Positions 6,767 through 11,728 of a DNA stretch of 13,301 bases are shown piece by piece. The notes beneath the pieces were generated by a model, which had not been told where the DNA came from, did not search any database, and worked only from the letters and a program-made list of their open reading frames with translations. Within the stretch, counting starts at the first letter, position 1. Each line of letters begins with the position of its first letter. The translations under genes and the position numbers were made by a program. The stretch spans positions 1 to 13,301 of the forward strand of contig JAEUJR010000241.1 of NCBI GenBank assembly GCA_016793585.1. The letters are read 5' to 3'. The stretch is from Archangium sp. Its GTDB lineage: Bacteria; Myxococcota; Myxococcia; Myxococcales; Myxococcaceae.

Positions 6767-7328
6767 TCACGTGCCGCCGTCTTTGGGCGGCGCGAAGAAC
6801 TGCAGCGCCTTCGGCTTCTCGAGGCTGCACGCCGTCACAGTGCTCGAGGGATCGAGCGCGTCGCTGCCCTCTTGAATCGCGAGCACCTTGCGGCCCGCGC
6901 CGATCACGAAGGTGACGCGTTTGGCGACGGTCACCAGCGGGTACTTCACGTCGAAGCGCCGCATCAGCGCGCCCGAGTCGTCACTCACGAACGAGTACGG
7001 CGCCTTCAGGCTGTCGCGAAACTTCTTCGCGGTCTCGGCGTCGTCGCCCGAGACGGCCATCACCGTGCCCTGGTGCTTCTCGATGTCGGCATACCGGTCC
7101 CGGTACGCGGTGAGCTCGCGCGTTCAACCTGCGGTGAAGGCCTTCGGGTAGAAGGCGACCACGACCGCGCTCGACCAGCTTCGACAACGTGAGCTCGCGG
7201 CCGTCGACGTCTTTGACTGCGAAGTCGGGGGCCACGTCACCCACCACCGGCGTAGCTGCGAGAACGAGAAGCGCGGCGGCGACCATGCGGGCCAGGTAAC
7301 GAAGCGACGCGCAGGGCGCCACTCTCAC
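6767..7328 (-). CDS. Selenocysteine-type peroxiredoxin (TGA at the peroxidatic Cys), with an apparent one-base frameshift
   Basis: Thiol peroxidase of the AhpC/TSA-Bcp kind, probably exported. The first frame gives a signal-like hydrophobic stretch, then Gly-Asp-Val-Ala-Pro-Asp-Phe-Ala-Val-Lys-Asp-Val-Asp-Gly-Arg-Glu-Leu-Thr-Leu-Ser, the usual peroxiredoxin start. After Leu-Val-Glu-Arg (7178-7167) homology moves by one base to the frame starting at 7165: Val-Val-Val-Ala-Phe-Tyr-Pro-Lys-Ala-Phe-Thr-Ala-Gly-[TGA 7126-7124]-Thr-Arg-Glu-Leu. It then stays open to 6767. In the family the TGA position is the peroxidatic Cys of T-x-x-C-T, so selenocysteine is proposed. The reconstructed protein is about 186 aa (Sec near 68), with one mature Cys near the C-terminus (Thr-Ala-Cys-Ser-Leu) as possible resolving residue. 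GTG at 7328 overlaps the upstream stop as GTGA and supplies a charged n-region; ATG at 7286 is the alternative. The frameshift may be a sequence error or a real lesion. Confidence 0.75.
7089..7126 (-). promoter_or_regulatory. Candidate bacterial SECIS element with recoded TGA
   Basis: On the minus strand the TGA (7126-7124) is followed by a 15-nt spacer. Then GCGTACC (7108-7102), loop GGGACC (7101-7096) and GGTATGC (7095-7089) make a 7-bp stem with one G-U pair. The apical loop begins 22 nt after the TGA and its first bases are G. Bacterial SECIS elements sit just downstream of the UGA inside the coding region, with a small apical loop carrying a G near its start, which SelB recognises. The fit is by eye; no folding energy was computed. 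Confidence 0.6.
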
Positions 7329-8596
7329 TGGGCCAGGCGCGCCCAGACGGCGGCGGCGGCTTCGCGGCTCACCCGCGCCTGCTCGGCGACGTCGACCGAG
7401 AGGGGCTTTCGTTTCCACAAGCGCCACATGCCGTCGACCATCACCGACTCCACGTGCTGCGAGGCCATGCCGTGGAGCAGGTGCGCTGCGAGCGTCTCAG
7501 AGGTGAGCGGGGTCGGCGGCTGGTAGTCGAGCACCACGAGATCGGCGACGGCCTCTTCGCGCAACGGGCCGATGGTCTGATGAAACGCCTGCGACGCGAG
7601 CCGGTGCCCGTTGGCGATGACGCGCAGAATGTCGATGGGCTGGGCGGCGTCACGGCTGCGCAGCGACGCGACCTGCGCCTCGGCCAGCGTGTCGAGGCTC
7701 ATCACGTCGGTGCCCAGACACGCGCGAACCCCGAACTTGGCCGGCGCGGCCATGCCCGTCTGCGTGTTCATGTTGCTTCGCGCAGCGTGCACCAGCCACG
7801 CGCCACGGGTGAGCAGCTCGGACAGCTGGGGCCACGAGAAGTGAACGCCCTGGGCCAGCACCGTCTTCTCGGTCACCAGCTCCTTCTCGAAGAGACGCTC
7901 GAGCGGCGTGGCGCCGAACGCCGCCTGGCTCTGTGACTCTTCGCGCGCGTCTTCGGCGATGTTCACCAGCAGCTGCGCGCCGGTGCTCGTGGTGATGGCC
8001 TTCACCGCCTGCAGCGACTCGTTCGAGGTCACGCCCAGGTGCGAGAGCCCGACCGCGCCACGGAACCGGCCACGGGCGCGCGAGATGAAGCCGGTCATCT
8101 CTTCGAGCGACTCTTCGCGGCTCACCACGCCGGCGCGGTCGGAGAGCTCGTAGGCCAGCACCCCACGAATGCCCGTGTCGTTGAGCCCGTGCGCCACCTT
8201 GCCGAGCGAGCCCGCCACCACGCGCGGAGAGGCGTGCACTGCGAACACCGTTGTGGTGCCCGCGCACAGCCCCTCGAGGCCGCCCGACGACGCGAAGGCC
8301 TGAATGTCGTCGAGGCTGAGCGCCTCTTCGACGCGCTCGAACAACGCCTGCTCGGCAGCGAAGCCACTCTGCGCCCGCGCGAGCCCCCGCAGCAGACTGC
8401 CGTGCAGGTGATGGTGGGCGCTCACGAGCCCCGGCATCACCACCCGCCCCGAGAGATCGGTCACCTCTTCGTTGGGCAGCGGCTCGAGCGACGGCGCCCG
8501 CGCGATGACCTTGCCCTTCTCGATACGAAGATCGGCGCGCTCCACCGTCGGCGGTTCGATCTCGACGAGCGTTGCCCCTCTGAGAAGCGTCGACAC
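7325..8596 (-). CDS. ssnA: SsnA-like amidohydrolase (selenium-associated family), with substituted active-site His
   Basis: A 423-aa metal-dependent hydrolase-fold protein (ATZ/TRZ, cytosine deaminase superfamily). Likeness to SsnA, an amidohydrolase found with selenium-dependent molybdenum hydroxylase genes, is seen in Pro-Gly-Leu-Val-Ser-Ala-His61-His-His63 near the start, His121-Ala-Ser-Pro followed by Gly-Ser-Leu, Leu-Val-His270-Ala-Ala-Arg-Ser-Asn-Met-Asn, Leu-Gly-Thr-Asp297, and near the end Asp-Tyr-x-x-Pro-Thr-Pro-Leu and His-Gly-Met-Ala-Ser. The HxH pair and Asp297 metal ligands are kept. The third His ligand (HxxE motif) is Asn212 (Asn-Ile-Ala-Glu215), and the His of the following Ala-His-Gly is Gln249. 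Ordinary hydrolysis may therefore be altered or lost. The start is GTG at 8596, without a clear Shine-Dalgarno. It lies directly upstream of the peroxiredoxin, probably as one operon. The SsnA call is by recognition; a generic amidohydrolase is the fallback. Confidence 0.8.
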   Translation of the reverse strand: MSTLLRGATLVEIEPPTVERADLRIEKGKVIARAPSLEPLPNEEVTDLSGRVVMPGLVSAHHHLHGSLLRGLARAQSGFAAEQALFERVEEALSLDDIQAFASSGGLEGLCAGTTTVFAVHASPRVVAGSLGKVAHGLNDTGIRGVLAYELSDRAGVVSREESLEEMTGFISRARGRFRGAVGLSHLGVTSNESLQAVKAITTSTGAQLLVNIAEDAREESQSQAAFGATPLERLFEKELVTEKTVLAQGVHFSWPQLSELLTRGAWLVHAARSNMNTQTGMAAPAKFGVRACLGTDVMSLDTLAEAQVASLRSRDAAQPIDILRVIANGHRLASQAFHQTIGPLREEAVADLVVLDYQPPTPLTSETLAAHLLHGMASQHVESVMVDGMWRLWKRKPLSVDVAEQARVSREAAAAVWARLAQ

Positions 8597-8660: not shown

Positions 8661-8752
8661 TGACAAGTCGCTGGTGTGCGCACTGTCCCGTTCCCAGTCA
8701 GATCAGGGCTGTGCTGTCGGAGGCAGCTCACCCCTTCACTGACAAGTGGCTG
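8661..8752. repeat. 13-bp direct repeat in the divergent promoter region
   Basis: TGACAAGTCGCTG (8661-8673) and TGACAAGTGGCTG (8740-8752) differ at one base and are 79 bp apart start to start. They lie in the 247-bp non-coding gap between the ssnA-like gene and the first protease gene. They could be operator sites for either gene; no confident -10/-35 or -24/-12 promoter was found in the gap. Confidence 0.35.
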
Positions 8753-8843
8753 TTTTTTCGTTCTGAAAGTGCTGGGCACACACCTTGCTCACGGCGCGCA
8801 CCATTGCAGGGTCTGTGCGATACGCAGCAGCAAGGGAGTCGAC

Positions 8844-10286
8844 ATGAAGTCACAGCTTCTCTTCACGGTGTTGGCCGGCGCCGTTCTTGGGAGTGCCTGC
8901 GGCCAACTCGAGCTTCCTTCGGCGGAGCCCTCGGCCAGCACCAGCCAGGAGATCATCGGCGGCACCGTCACCATGGGTGACCCTGCGGTCGTCGCGCTGG
9001 TCGTCGGCTACGGAAACCGGTTCTCGCAGTACTGCACTGGCTCGCTCATCGGCCCCAAGACGGTGCTGACCGCCGCCCACTGCATCTACGCCCAGGGCCA
9101 GAACGCGCCCTACTCCATCGCCTTCGGCACCTACGCGTCGAACCCCAGCTCGACGGTGCGGGTGGTTTCGCAGACCAGGCACCCGCTCTACTCCGGCCAG
9201 GCCAACGACTTCGGCCTGCTGCGCCTCGAGCGCGCGGTGACGAACGTGCCGCTCTTGCGATTGAACGAGACGGCGCTCACGCAGGCCATGGTGGGGTTGT
9301 CGGTGCGGCACTCGGGCTACGGCGTGACCGACGGCGCGTCGCAGATCGGCAGCGGCACCAAGCGCGAGGTGGCCACGCCCCTGCGCCGGGTGATGGCGAC
9401 CAGCTTCGAATCGGGGGCGCCCGGAAAGCAGACCTGCCAGGGAGACTCTGGCGGCCCGGCGTTCATGGTGCTGCCCGGCACCACCGACGAGAAGCTCGTT
9501 GGTGTCGTCAGCTACGGAGACCAGGGCTGCACCAACTTCGGCGTCGACATGCGCGTCGACACCGTCATCCCGTGGATTCGGCAGACCTCCAGCGCGTGGG
9601 AGGAGCCGACCTGCGAGCTCGACGGGCTCTGCAAGCAGGGCTGCGCGGTGATCGATCAAGACTGTGCGTGCGCGAGCGGTGACGGCCAGTGCTCGATCGA
9701 TTGCGCTGACTTCTCGCGTGACTCCGATTGCCCTGCCAACTGCGGCGCCGATGGCATCTGCGCGGTCGGCCAGTGCCCCCGCGCCGACGGCGATTGCGTC
9801 AGCGAGACCGGGCTGTGCACCGCGGCGACGCAATGCCAGGGCCGCCAGTGCGTGAACGACGCGCAGAACAAAGAAACCTACTGCAGCCGGCCGTGCGGTC
9901 AGACCAGCGAGTGTCAGTCGGGCATGCAGTGCGTCTCTGGCGCGTGCCGCATTCCTCCCCGGCCCGAGCGGCAACTGTTCGACGCGTGCTCGCCCATGCT
10001 CGACTTCTGCGTGACGAGCACCTGCAACGGGCCCAGCAACGGCATCACCCGCTGCGTTCAGCCCTGCAGCGTGACTGCCGACTGTGGCGACGCCGCCAAC
10101 TGCGAAGGCGGCAAGATGGGCGGTCGCTACTGCCGCCCGCTCAACCTCGACTTCATTCCGAAGACCGTCCCGGGCGTTCTGCCTCAGCTCGGCAACGTAC
10201 CGAAGGGCAACTGCAGCTCAGCGCCCGGTGGACTGTTGGGCGTGCTCATGCTGATGGTCCCGATGCGTCGTCGCCGTCGGAACTGA
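8844..10286 (+). CDS. Trypsin-fold serine protease, lipoprotein with Cys-rich modules and MYXO-CTERM-like tail
   Basis: A 480-aa surface protease. The ATG at 8844 has AAGGGAG (8832-8838) just upstream; the frame is open back to 8676, but that part has no signal. The signal ends at Leu-Gly-Ser-Ala-Cys19, a lipobox-like site. A short pro-segment leads to Ile37-Ile-Gly-Gly, the S1 mature N-terminus. Catalytic residues: His79 (Thr-Ala-Ala-His-Cys), Asp122 (Asn-Asp-Phe-Gly-Leu-Leu) and Ser202 (Cys-Gln-Gly-Asp-Ser-Gly-Gly-Pro). The residue at the chymotrypsin-189 position is Gln196, not Asp, so tryptic specificity is not expected. Residues 257-435 form several Cys-rich modules. The tail (455-480) is Gly-Asn-Cys-Ser-Ser, a hydrophobic helix and five Arg plus Asn, which resembles the MYXO-CTERM sorting signal cleaved by myxosortase. 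A close paralogue follows after 5 bp. Confidence 0.92.
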   Translation: MKSQLLFTVLAGAVLGSACGQLELPSAEPSASTSQEIIGGTVTMGDPAVVALVVGYGNRFSQYCTGSLIGPKTVLTAAHCIYAQGQNAPYSIAFGTYASNPSSTVRVVSQTRHPLYSGQANDFGLLRLERAVTNVPLLRLNETALTQAMVGLSVRHSGYGVTDGASQIGSGTKREVATPLRRVMATSFESGAPGKQTCQGDSGGPAFMVLPGTTDEKLVGVVSYGDQGCTNFGVDMRVDTVIPWIRQTSSAWEEPTCELDGLCKQGCAVIDQDCACASGDGQCSIDCADFSRDSDCPANCGADGICAVGQCPRADGDCVSETGLCTAATQCQGRQCVNDAQNKETYCSRPCGQTSECQSGMQCVSGACRIPPRPERQLFDACSPMLDFCVTSTCNGPSNGITRCVQPCSVTADCGDAANCEGGKMGGRYCRPLNLDFIPKTVPGVLPQLGNVPKGNCSSAPGGLLGVLMLMVPMRRRRRN

Positions 10287-10291
10287 ACCCC

Positions 10292-11728
10292 ATGAAACTC
10301 CGCCTTCTCTCGTCGTTCGCGCTCTTCACCGTGGCCTGCGGGCTCACCGTCGAAGAGGGCGGTGTCTCTGAGTTGCCGCCCGTGGCGTACCAGCGCGGCG
10401 CCATCGTCGGAGGCACGGTCGCTCCCGCCACCGACAACAACGTCTTTCAGCTGATCATGACCGAGAACAGCGGGCAGATGGGCATCTGCACCGCGACGCT
10501 CATCGGCTCGCGCACCCTGCTGACGGCCGCGCACTGCGTCGACTCCGCGCGCTCGGTGATCGCGCACAACGCGCCCACCGACCAACAGATTCGCTTCGGC
10601 GTGAACACCTACCGCGCGCTCCGGTGGAACACCCACCCGCAGTGGAACCCCAACGGCCAGGATCTTCGCAACGACATCGCGATCATTCTGCTCGAGAGCG
10701 CCCCCGCCAACGTGAACCCCAAGCCGTGGAACAACCAGTCGATGAACGGCACGCAGGGCCGGCCGATTCGCGCGGTGGGCTACGGCAACACCATGCCCGG
10801 CTCGGGCAACGGCACCCGCCGGCAGGTCAACCTCACCGTCGCCCAGCTCACCCAGCAGCTGATCTTCATGGGTGACAACCAGTCGAAGGGCATCTGCCAG
10901 GGCGACTCCGGTGGCCCCACGTTCTACACCTTCCCCGATGGCGTCGAGCGCCAGGTCGGCATTCACAGCTTCACCACCTCGCAGACGTGCACCTACGGAG
11001 CCGATACCCGGGTCGACGCCTTCGCGTCGTTCGTGCAGATGTACCTGACGATGTACGAGGCGCCGTCGTGTGATCGTGACGGCCGCTGCGCGACCAACTG
11101 CGCGATGCCCGACTTCGACTGCGTCTGCGCGAAGGACAACATCTGCAGCTCGGTGTGCCTCGGCCTCATGGGCGGCGTCGACCCCGACTGCCCAGACTGC
11201 GGCCCCAACGGCCTGTGCGCGACGACGGCTTGCGCCGACCCCGACCCCGACTGTGTTCCCCAGGGCGGCGACTGCACGATGGCCACGCAGTGCGTGAACC
11301 GCGAGTGCCGCAACGACCCGCAGAACCTTCAGCCGTACTGCACCCGCGCGTGCACCGGCCCCGCCGACTGCACGACTGGCTTCGAGTGCCTCAACGGCTT
11401 CTGCCTGAAGAAGCAGCTGCCGATCGTGGCGGTCGGAGCCGCCTGCCGCATCAACACGAACTTCTGCGCGATGGACACGGTCTGCACCGGGCCGACCGAG
11501 GGCGACTCGATCTGCCAGCTCACCTGCCGCAACCAGGGCGATTGCCCCGACAACTGGCAGTGCGCGAACGGGTGGAACGGCTTCCGCTTCTGTCAGGAGC
11601 CGCCCAAGCCGCAGATTCTCTTGCCCAAGGCGGCCATCGCAGGCCCGCTCGCGAAGACGGGGTGCAGCAGCGTGGGCGGGCTCACGCTGCTCCCGCTCCT
11701 CGCGCTGCTGCGTCGGCGTCGTCGCTGA
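10292..11728 (+). CDS. Second trypsin-fold serine protease, tandem paralogue with MYXO-CTERM-like tail
   Basis: A 478-aa paralogue of the preceding gene with the same architecture. The ATG at 10292 lies 5 bp after its stop, so the two are one transcript with probable translational coupling; only a weak CGGAA precedes it. The signal ends at Phe-Thr-Val-Ala-Cys16 (lipobox-like). Ile38-Val-Gly-Gly marks the mature protease start; the catalytic triad is His81, Asp128 and Ser206. The chymotrypsin-189 position is Gly200, so the S1 pocket is open or non-tryptic and differs from the first copy. Cys-rich modules follow (about 254-435), with blocks alignable to the first protein (Cys-Thr-x-Ala-Thr-Gln-Cys and Asp-x-x-Cys-x-x-Gly-x-x-Cys patterns). 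The tail Gly-Cys458-Ser-Ser-Val-Gly-Gly, a Leu-rich helix and five Arg is MYXO-CTERM-like. The stop TGA directly abuts the cysS stop on the other strand. Confidence 0.92.
   Translation: MKLRLLSSFALFTVACGLTVEEGGVSELPPVAYQRGAIVGGTVAPATDNNVFQLIMTENSGQMGICTATLIGSRTLLTAAHCVDSARSVIAHNAPTDQQIRFGVNTYRALRWNTHPQWNPNGQDLRNDIAIILLESAPANVNPKPWNNQSMNGTQGRPIRAVGYGNTMPGSGNGTRRQVNLTVAQLTQQLIFMGDNQSKGICQGDSGGPTFYTFPDGVERQVGIHSFTTSQTCTYGADTRVDAFASFVQMYLTMYEAPSCDRDGRCATNCAMPDFDCVCAKDNICSSVCLGLMGGVDPDCPDCGPNGLCATTACADPDPDCVPQGGDCTMATQCVNRECRNDPQNLQPYCTRACTGPADCTTGFECLNGFCLKKQLPIVAVGAACRINTNFCAMDTVCTGPTEGDSICQLTCRNQGDCPDNWQCANGWNGFRFCQEPPKPQILLPKAAIAGPLAKTGCSSVGGLTLLPLLALLRRRRR

Follow-up and report, generated by a model that had tools for sequence, protein, structure and literature searches.

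The window, by which we mean the whole analysed stretch of 13,301 nucleotides (Archangium sp., contig JAEUJR010000241.1), contains on its minus strand a peroxiredoxin gene with an in-frame TGA codon, directly preceded by a gene for an SsnA-like aminohydrolase. The features discussed below are collected in Table 1. The frame around the TGA translates as VVVAFYPKAFTAG-[TGA]-TRELTAYRDRYADIEKHQGT, and the codon at 7126-7124 does lie within FTAG-[TGA]-TRE, as a preliminary description of this DNA had proposed. On its plus strand the window also encodes two trypsin-like proteases in tandem, one at 8676-10286 and the other at 10289-11728, which have Cys-rich portions and a C-terminal tail rich in Arg that we take to be MYXO-CTERM-like.

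Table 1. Features of the peroxiredoxin locus (positions in the window)
Feature	Position	Strand	Basis or remark
Peroxiredoxin gene (AhpC-TSA/Redoxin fold, TxxU type)	6767..7286	minus	ATG 7286-7284, stop TGA 6769-6767; frame-broken copy
In-frame TGA at peroxidatic position, read as selenocysteine	7124..7126	minus	TGA in 40, Cys codon in 30 of 70 loci
SECIS hairpin, 8-bp stem 7108-7101/7096-7089, apical loop GGAC (7100-7097)	7089..7108	minus	Conservation in TGA rows
Gap of 5 nt relative to intact G001, breaks frame	7165..7167	minus	Alignment to G001
Conserved C-terminal Cys codon (C155 in the G001 protein), proposed resolving Cys	6827..6829	minus	Cys in 70/71 rows
SsnA-like aminohydrolase, directly upstream, probable operon partner	7325..8596	minus	Profile matches; upstream in 40/48 family-f1 loci

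The nearest relative is locus L001 of genome G001, 91% identical to the window over 2.2 kb. Its named record, L081, is the MAG 'Archangiaceae bacterium isolate LZH', and the intact gene is found at L001/L081:2140-2664. With the same TGA read through, it codes for 174 residues, matches PF00578 with 105.5 bits (cut-off 26), which places the product among proteins with the AhpC-TSA/Redoxin domain, and carries the motif PKAFTAGU, fitting the PxxxTxxU definition given in the consulted part of PMC13188914. The frame is open from start to stop through the UGA in G001 and is not in the window copy. The peroxiredoxin sequence that had been claimed for the TGA frame on both sides of the codon is there from about 7165 on; the N-terminal part (MVAAALL...LVERG, from the ATG at 7286) lies in a different frame from the part beginning with VVVAFY. 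From ATG to TGA the window has 160 nt and G001 165 nt. Thus the TGA is not the only lesion, as had been assumed, because a second one, a 5-nt gap at about 7166, is present relative to G001, and the window copy as sequenced yields no full-length protein.

A search for homologues with Cys or Sec in the TGA column, suggested in the preliminary description, returned exactly these two states. Among 70 homologous loci from 99 searched relatives, the peroxidatic column holds TGA in 40, a Cys codon (TGC or TGT) in 30 and any other codon in none; with the window added, there are 41 Sec rows and 30 Cys rows, 71 altogether. The loci read are match ranks 1-69 and 73, which leaves out G011:C55 and G046:C14 (no stop), G076:C8 (one TGA) and all lower matches, three of which list one TGA (G090:C39, G041 at 705 kb and G094:C503).

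Further evidence comes from the hairpin 3' of the TGA. The 7-bp stem described earlier (7108-7102/7095-7089, loop GGGACC) is present and gains one more pair, 7101/7096, so that the stem has 8 bp and the loop reads GGAC; the distance from the TGA to the apical loop, 22 nt as first described, becomes 23 nt with the extra pair, and the MFE is -15.7. The hairpin fits the bacterial SECIS model as given in the legend to Fig. 2 of PMC13188914. When the encoded peptide was kept fixed, synonymous codons were redrawn 300 times and the SECIS-model stem length was scored, a stem at least as long as that of the window arose in about 12% of the redraws (P about 0.12), and the folding energy of the window was unremarkable (z -0.04). 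The earlier argument that a chance TGA followed by such a hairpin is unlikely does not hold for this one sequence, given its peptide. With such a P value the window hairpin alone is weak evidence, and it is conservation across relatives that counts. A search of the window against Rfam, with E values up to 1 allowed, gave no match, and no tRNA was detected by ARAGORN; neither result is evidence against a SECIS element inside a coding region.

Across relatives, the hairpin accompanies TGA, and Cys rows have mostly lost it. In families f1 and f5, where the 35 TGA rows comprise 34 loci and the window, at least 7 of the 8 pairs are kept in 35/35 TGA rows versus 9/29 Cys rows, and all 8 are formed in 31/35 versus 4/29. 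Counting distinct sequences only, the figures are 29/29 versus 8/28 for at least 7 pairs and 25/29 versus 3/28 for all 8. Among rows that code for the identical peptide AYRDRY, all pairs are formed in 30/32 TGA rows and 2/14 Cys rows; the Fisher p of 1.9e-7 is uncorrected for relatedness and is too strong because the rows are related. In a tree-controlled test with 6 starred pairs, a mean of 3.6-4.3 agreed with the Sec reading and 0.1 opposed it (stem thresholds 5-8); the median p of 0.125-0.25, depending on threshold, is not significant, and the test is without power at 6 pairs. In the TGA row L054, one pair is retained through changes on both sides (A-T to T-A), and the peptide of this row differs. 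The whole-fold MFE compared with synonymous redraws gave a weak signal, with a mean z of -0.79 in the 40 TGA loci and -0.28 in the 30 Cys loci (p 0.026, with no correction for relatedness). The TGA loci of family f7 (L070-L072 and L074-L076) have hairpins other than the f1/f5 type, and four of these six lack 6 unbroken pairs in a simple SECIS scan.

Differences at fourfold sites tell a mixed story. In five loci of the genus (ten pairs pooled), the hairpin segment differs at 7/67 sites (0.10) versus 18/50 to 105/232 (0.36-0.45) elsewhere, and in ten Sec loci at 50/327 versus 0.28-0.43 in other segments. In 14 Cys loci the hairpin segment is the most diverged one, with 263/490 versus 0.23-0.35. 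A second set of 8 Sec loci shows 43/224 (0.19), no lower than other segments (0.00-0.27), and we rejected low divergence of the hairpin segment as a general trait of Sec loci.

The Sec and Cys labels change 7 times on the quick tree of 71 rows (at least 5 of these changes forced by starred branches) or 8 times on the careful tree, counted irrespective of direction. The few Cys rows in which all 8 hairpin pairs remain would fit a change from Sec to Cys. For comparison, the table in the consulted part of PMC1794560 gives 5 switches for Prx under two-headed Sec->Cys / Cys->Sec columns, and we read them as Cys->Sec. In genus g7, L035 (G059, TGT) and L042 (G047, TGA) differ by a single base within 57 nt, namely TGA/TGT, and at 11/420 nt around it, which indicates that this switch is very recent; both genomes have tRNA-Sec and SelB. 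Two further genomes of this genus, G013 and G033, each carry one Sec copy and one Cys copy of the peroxiredoxin. Such close Sec/Cys pairs represent a natural test of the benefit of selenium and of the rate at which SECIS decays once it is unneeded.

Selenocysteine requires dedicated machinery, which we searched for in seven genomes of the genus. tRNA-Sec (RF01852, 70-73 bits), SelA and SelD are present in all seven and SelB exceeds its cut-off in six; the exception is G006, a genome 85% complete, and in G001 the SelB match covers model positions 1-346 of 581. We infer the machinery of the window organism from these relatives. Among 14 well-known control genomes, matches over the cut-off were obtained for tRNA-Sec in 5, SelB in 2, SelA in 1 and SelD in 2, and because the tRNA-Sec cut-off was passed by that many controls, we raised this threshold to 60 bits. 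The 39 genomes with the TGA form then have tRNA-Sec in 31 (8 lack a match of 60 bits), SelB over the cut-off in 36 and either of them in 38; G031, 87% complete and in 900 contigs, has the TGA form and reaches neither threshold. Among the 30 genomes with the Cys form, two (G049 and G079) lack both tRNA-Sec and SelB at these thresholds. In several relatives, among them G013 and G063, SelD itself contains an internal TGA that probably encodes Sec; none of the seven genus genomes G001-G007 shows this.

We therefore consider it very probable that the locus holds a gene for a two-thiol peroxiredoxin with selenocysteine at the peroxidatic residue, represented in the window by a copy with a 5-nt gap. 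The proposal that the TGA encodes Sec in place of the peroxidatic Cys, aided by a bacterial SECIS, is supported by the column containing only TGA and Cys, the association of hairpin and TGA, the machinery in genus genomes and the intact gene in G001. Decayed frames in close homologues, of which the preliminary description had warned, are not what we see: the G001 gene is intact, and on the two sides of the gap the window and G001 copies show dN of 0.012 and 0.017 with dS of 0.585 and 0.162, values which indicate that they differ under purifying selection. The window gene is a Sec-peroxiredoxin gene; an expressed selenoprotein is putative for this frame-broken copy.

There are two main explanations of the gap, and the low dN on both sides of it points to a recent gap or a sequence error and argues against old decay. 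Firstly, the gene may be a normal Sec-peroxiredoxin gene in which sequencing or assembly went wrong in GC-rich DNA, to which we give an even chance. Over 5,353 aligned nucleotides of the window, this gap is the only uncompensated frame-breaking one inside a gene body, all others being situated close to the ends of genes, in intergenic DNA or in pairs that compensate each other, and this, together with the low dN, is what an error would leave; against it, the gap is 5 nt long and outside any homopolymer run, and the open frames of the adjacent genes show that sequence quality is good elsewhere. Secondly, the gap may be real and recent, with this lineage having lost a Sec-peroxiredoxin function that its relatives keep, a course of events whose probability falls somewhat short of one half. 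The gap is a clean one that neither G001 nor the other genus loci, L008-L011, share, and a search of the genus-mate G003 turned up neither member of the gene pair, so loss may occur; there is, however, no sign of relaxed selection, and a single allele of the species has been seen.

That the window copy is a pseudogene of an ordinary Cys peroxiredoxin, with the TGA as a nonsense mutation and the gap as a second lesion, is very improbable: it does contain two lesions within about 40 nt and no intact frame, but the TGA recurs in G001, the nearest relative, whose gene is intact, and in another 39 loci, the hairpin goes with it, and dN is only 0.012-0.017. Bypass of the UGA without selenium, by readthrough as another residue or by a reassigned code, can draw on the open frame only and is scarcely credible, since TGA is also the terminal stop of the same gene, homologues have TGA or Cys only, and relatives possess Sec machinery.

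One local peculiarity of the window concerns the 165 nt from the TGA on (7126-6962), which differ from L081 at 2 positions only; stretches of 165 nt taken every 15 nt along the upstream gene show at least 7 differences between window and G001. The near-identity perhaps marks a local recombination tract. As a trait of the genus it was rejected, because the ten pairs of the five genus loci are low in the hairpin segment only.

To return to the Sec-peroxiredoxin itself, just two Cys/Sec columns are conserved in the alignment: the Sec/Cys column in 71/71 rows and the C-terminal Cys in all but L076, where the contig ends. In the AlphaFold2 model (pLDDT 86.4), the Sec position (residue 56, entered as Cys) lies at a helix start, in the first turn, and C155 terminates a helix close to the C-terminus; its best fold matches in the PDB are the peroxiredoxins BcpB, Bcp, AhpC and AhpE. 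The rows displayed begin with a short hydrophobic N-terminus that may be an export signal. A possible mechanism, built on conservation and the known bacterial process, is as follows. In intact relatives, SelB carrying Sec-tRNA-Sec would bind the hairpin 3' of the UGA and Sec would be inserted. The Sec would then attack peroxide, the conserved C-terminal Cys would probably resolve the selenenic acid, giving a selenenylsulphide, and regeneration would be the task of a thioredoxin-like reductant. The window copy keeps the Sec codon and SECIS; with the 5-nt gap upstream of them it would either be a very recently inactivated allele or contain a local sequence error.

The upstream gene finds its best models, the top two among the 25 NCBIfam matches listed for it, in SsnA, both well below cut-off (TIGR03314, 259.3 versus 455.5; PRK07203, 264.4 versus 444). 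In 40 of 48 family-f1 loci (18/24 with TGA and 22/24 with Cys), the aminohydrolase gene is the immediate upstream neighbour and has the same orientation. Of the rest, L017 has a match that ends further off and seven have none in the flank searched, which was about 0.5 kb for five of them; within about 0.5 kb upstream it was found in 0/15 f5 and 0/7 f7 loci. In G003, neither peroxiredoxin nor aminohydrolase was found, and in G005 the aminohydrolase is 145 nt from a contig end that may hide the peroxiredoxin. As a tentative proposal, which we ourselves hold to be rather unlikely, the SsnA-like aminohydrolase and the Sec/Cys peroxiredoxin would belong together functionally, as a pair conserved within one myxobacterial family, Sec and Cys having been swapped repeatedly (7-8 changes, some within a genus, with hairpin remnants), and the window lineage would be losing the enzyme outright. 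If true, the two would act as a redox module coupled to a deaminase-type reaction and would not serve to scavenge peroxide in general. A literature search combining SsnA, selenium and aminohydrolase found nothing.

Bacterial Sec-containing peroxiredoxins (Prx, TxxU, PF00578/COG1225) are known from the consulted parts of PMC1794560, PMC13188914, PMC1088965 and PMC1914089, among which three Prx selenoproteins are listed for Anaeromyxobacter dehalogenans. Literature searches for selenoprotein and peroxiredoxin in myxobacteria found nothing; the same terms with Sorangium cellulosum gave work that is unrelated, as judged from titles and the beginnings of abstracts, and with Myxococcus one paper unrelated by the same criterion and one naming Myxococcus just for an inhibitor. 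What we add are the 7-8 Sec/Cys switches on the tree and the SsnA-like gene directly upstream in 40/48 loci of one family. The 59 database proteins found include 31 with a length of 95-118 aa; all three that we inspected from this group begin after the UGA, so gene callers appear to cut the gene at this codon. None of the NCBIfam models reported for the intact relative reaches its cut-off, and the clade is thus likely mis-annotated. The myxobacterial clade has probably been missed by annotation.

Several peroxiredoxin groups invite comparison. The thioredoxin-dependent peroxiredoxin PrxU (NF040737) shares the fold and a local match, but 35.1 bits against a cut-off of 270 place our gene outside that family. 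Of the solved structures, those of PrxQ/BCP proteins (5epf BcpB, 2cx3 BCP) and AhpE come nearest in sequence and belong to the nearest in fold. PrxQ/BCP has a Cys five residues after the peroxidatic one; the gene described here lacks it (TRELTAYRD) and scores 63.6 bits with PRK09437 (cut-off 140). With AhpC-Prx1, the typical 2-Cys group, it shares a second Cys near the C-terminus, presumably resembling the VCP motif of that group, although TIGR03137 gives 49.1 bits against a cut-off of 272. The window gene belongs to the already known TxxU kind of Sec-peroxiredoxins, including those of A. dehalogenans, and as far as the consulted parts of that literature go it is alike in the peroxiredoxin fold, in PxxxTxxU (here PKAFTAGU) and in a bacterial SECIS directly 3' of the UGA. 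It differs in that the clade, in which the members with names are MAGs labelled Archangium or Myxococcaceae, is unnamed in those parts, that the window copy is frame-broken, and that the clade shows conservation of a second Cys at the C-terminal end and, for one family, the SsnA-like upstream gene.
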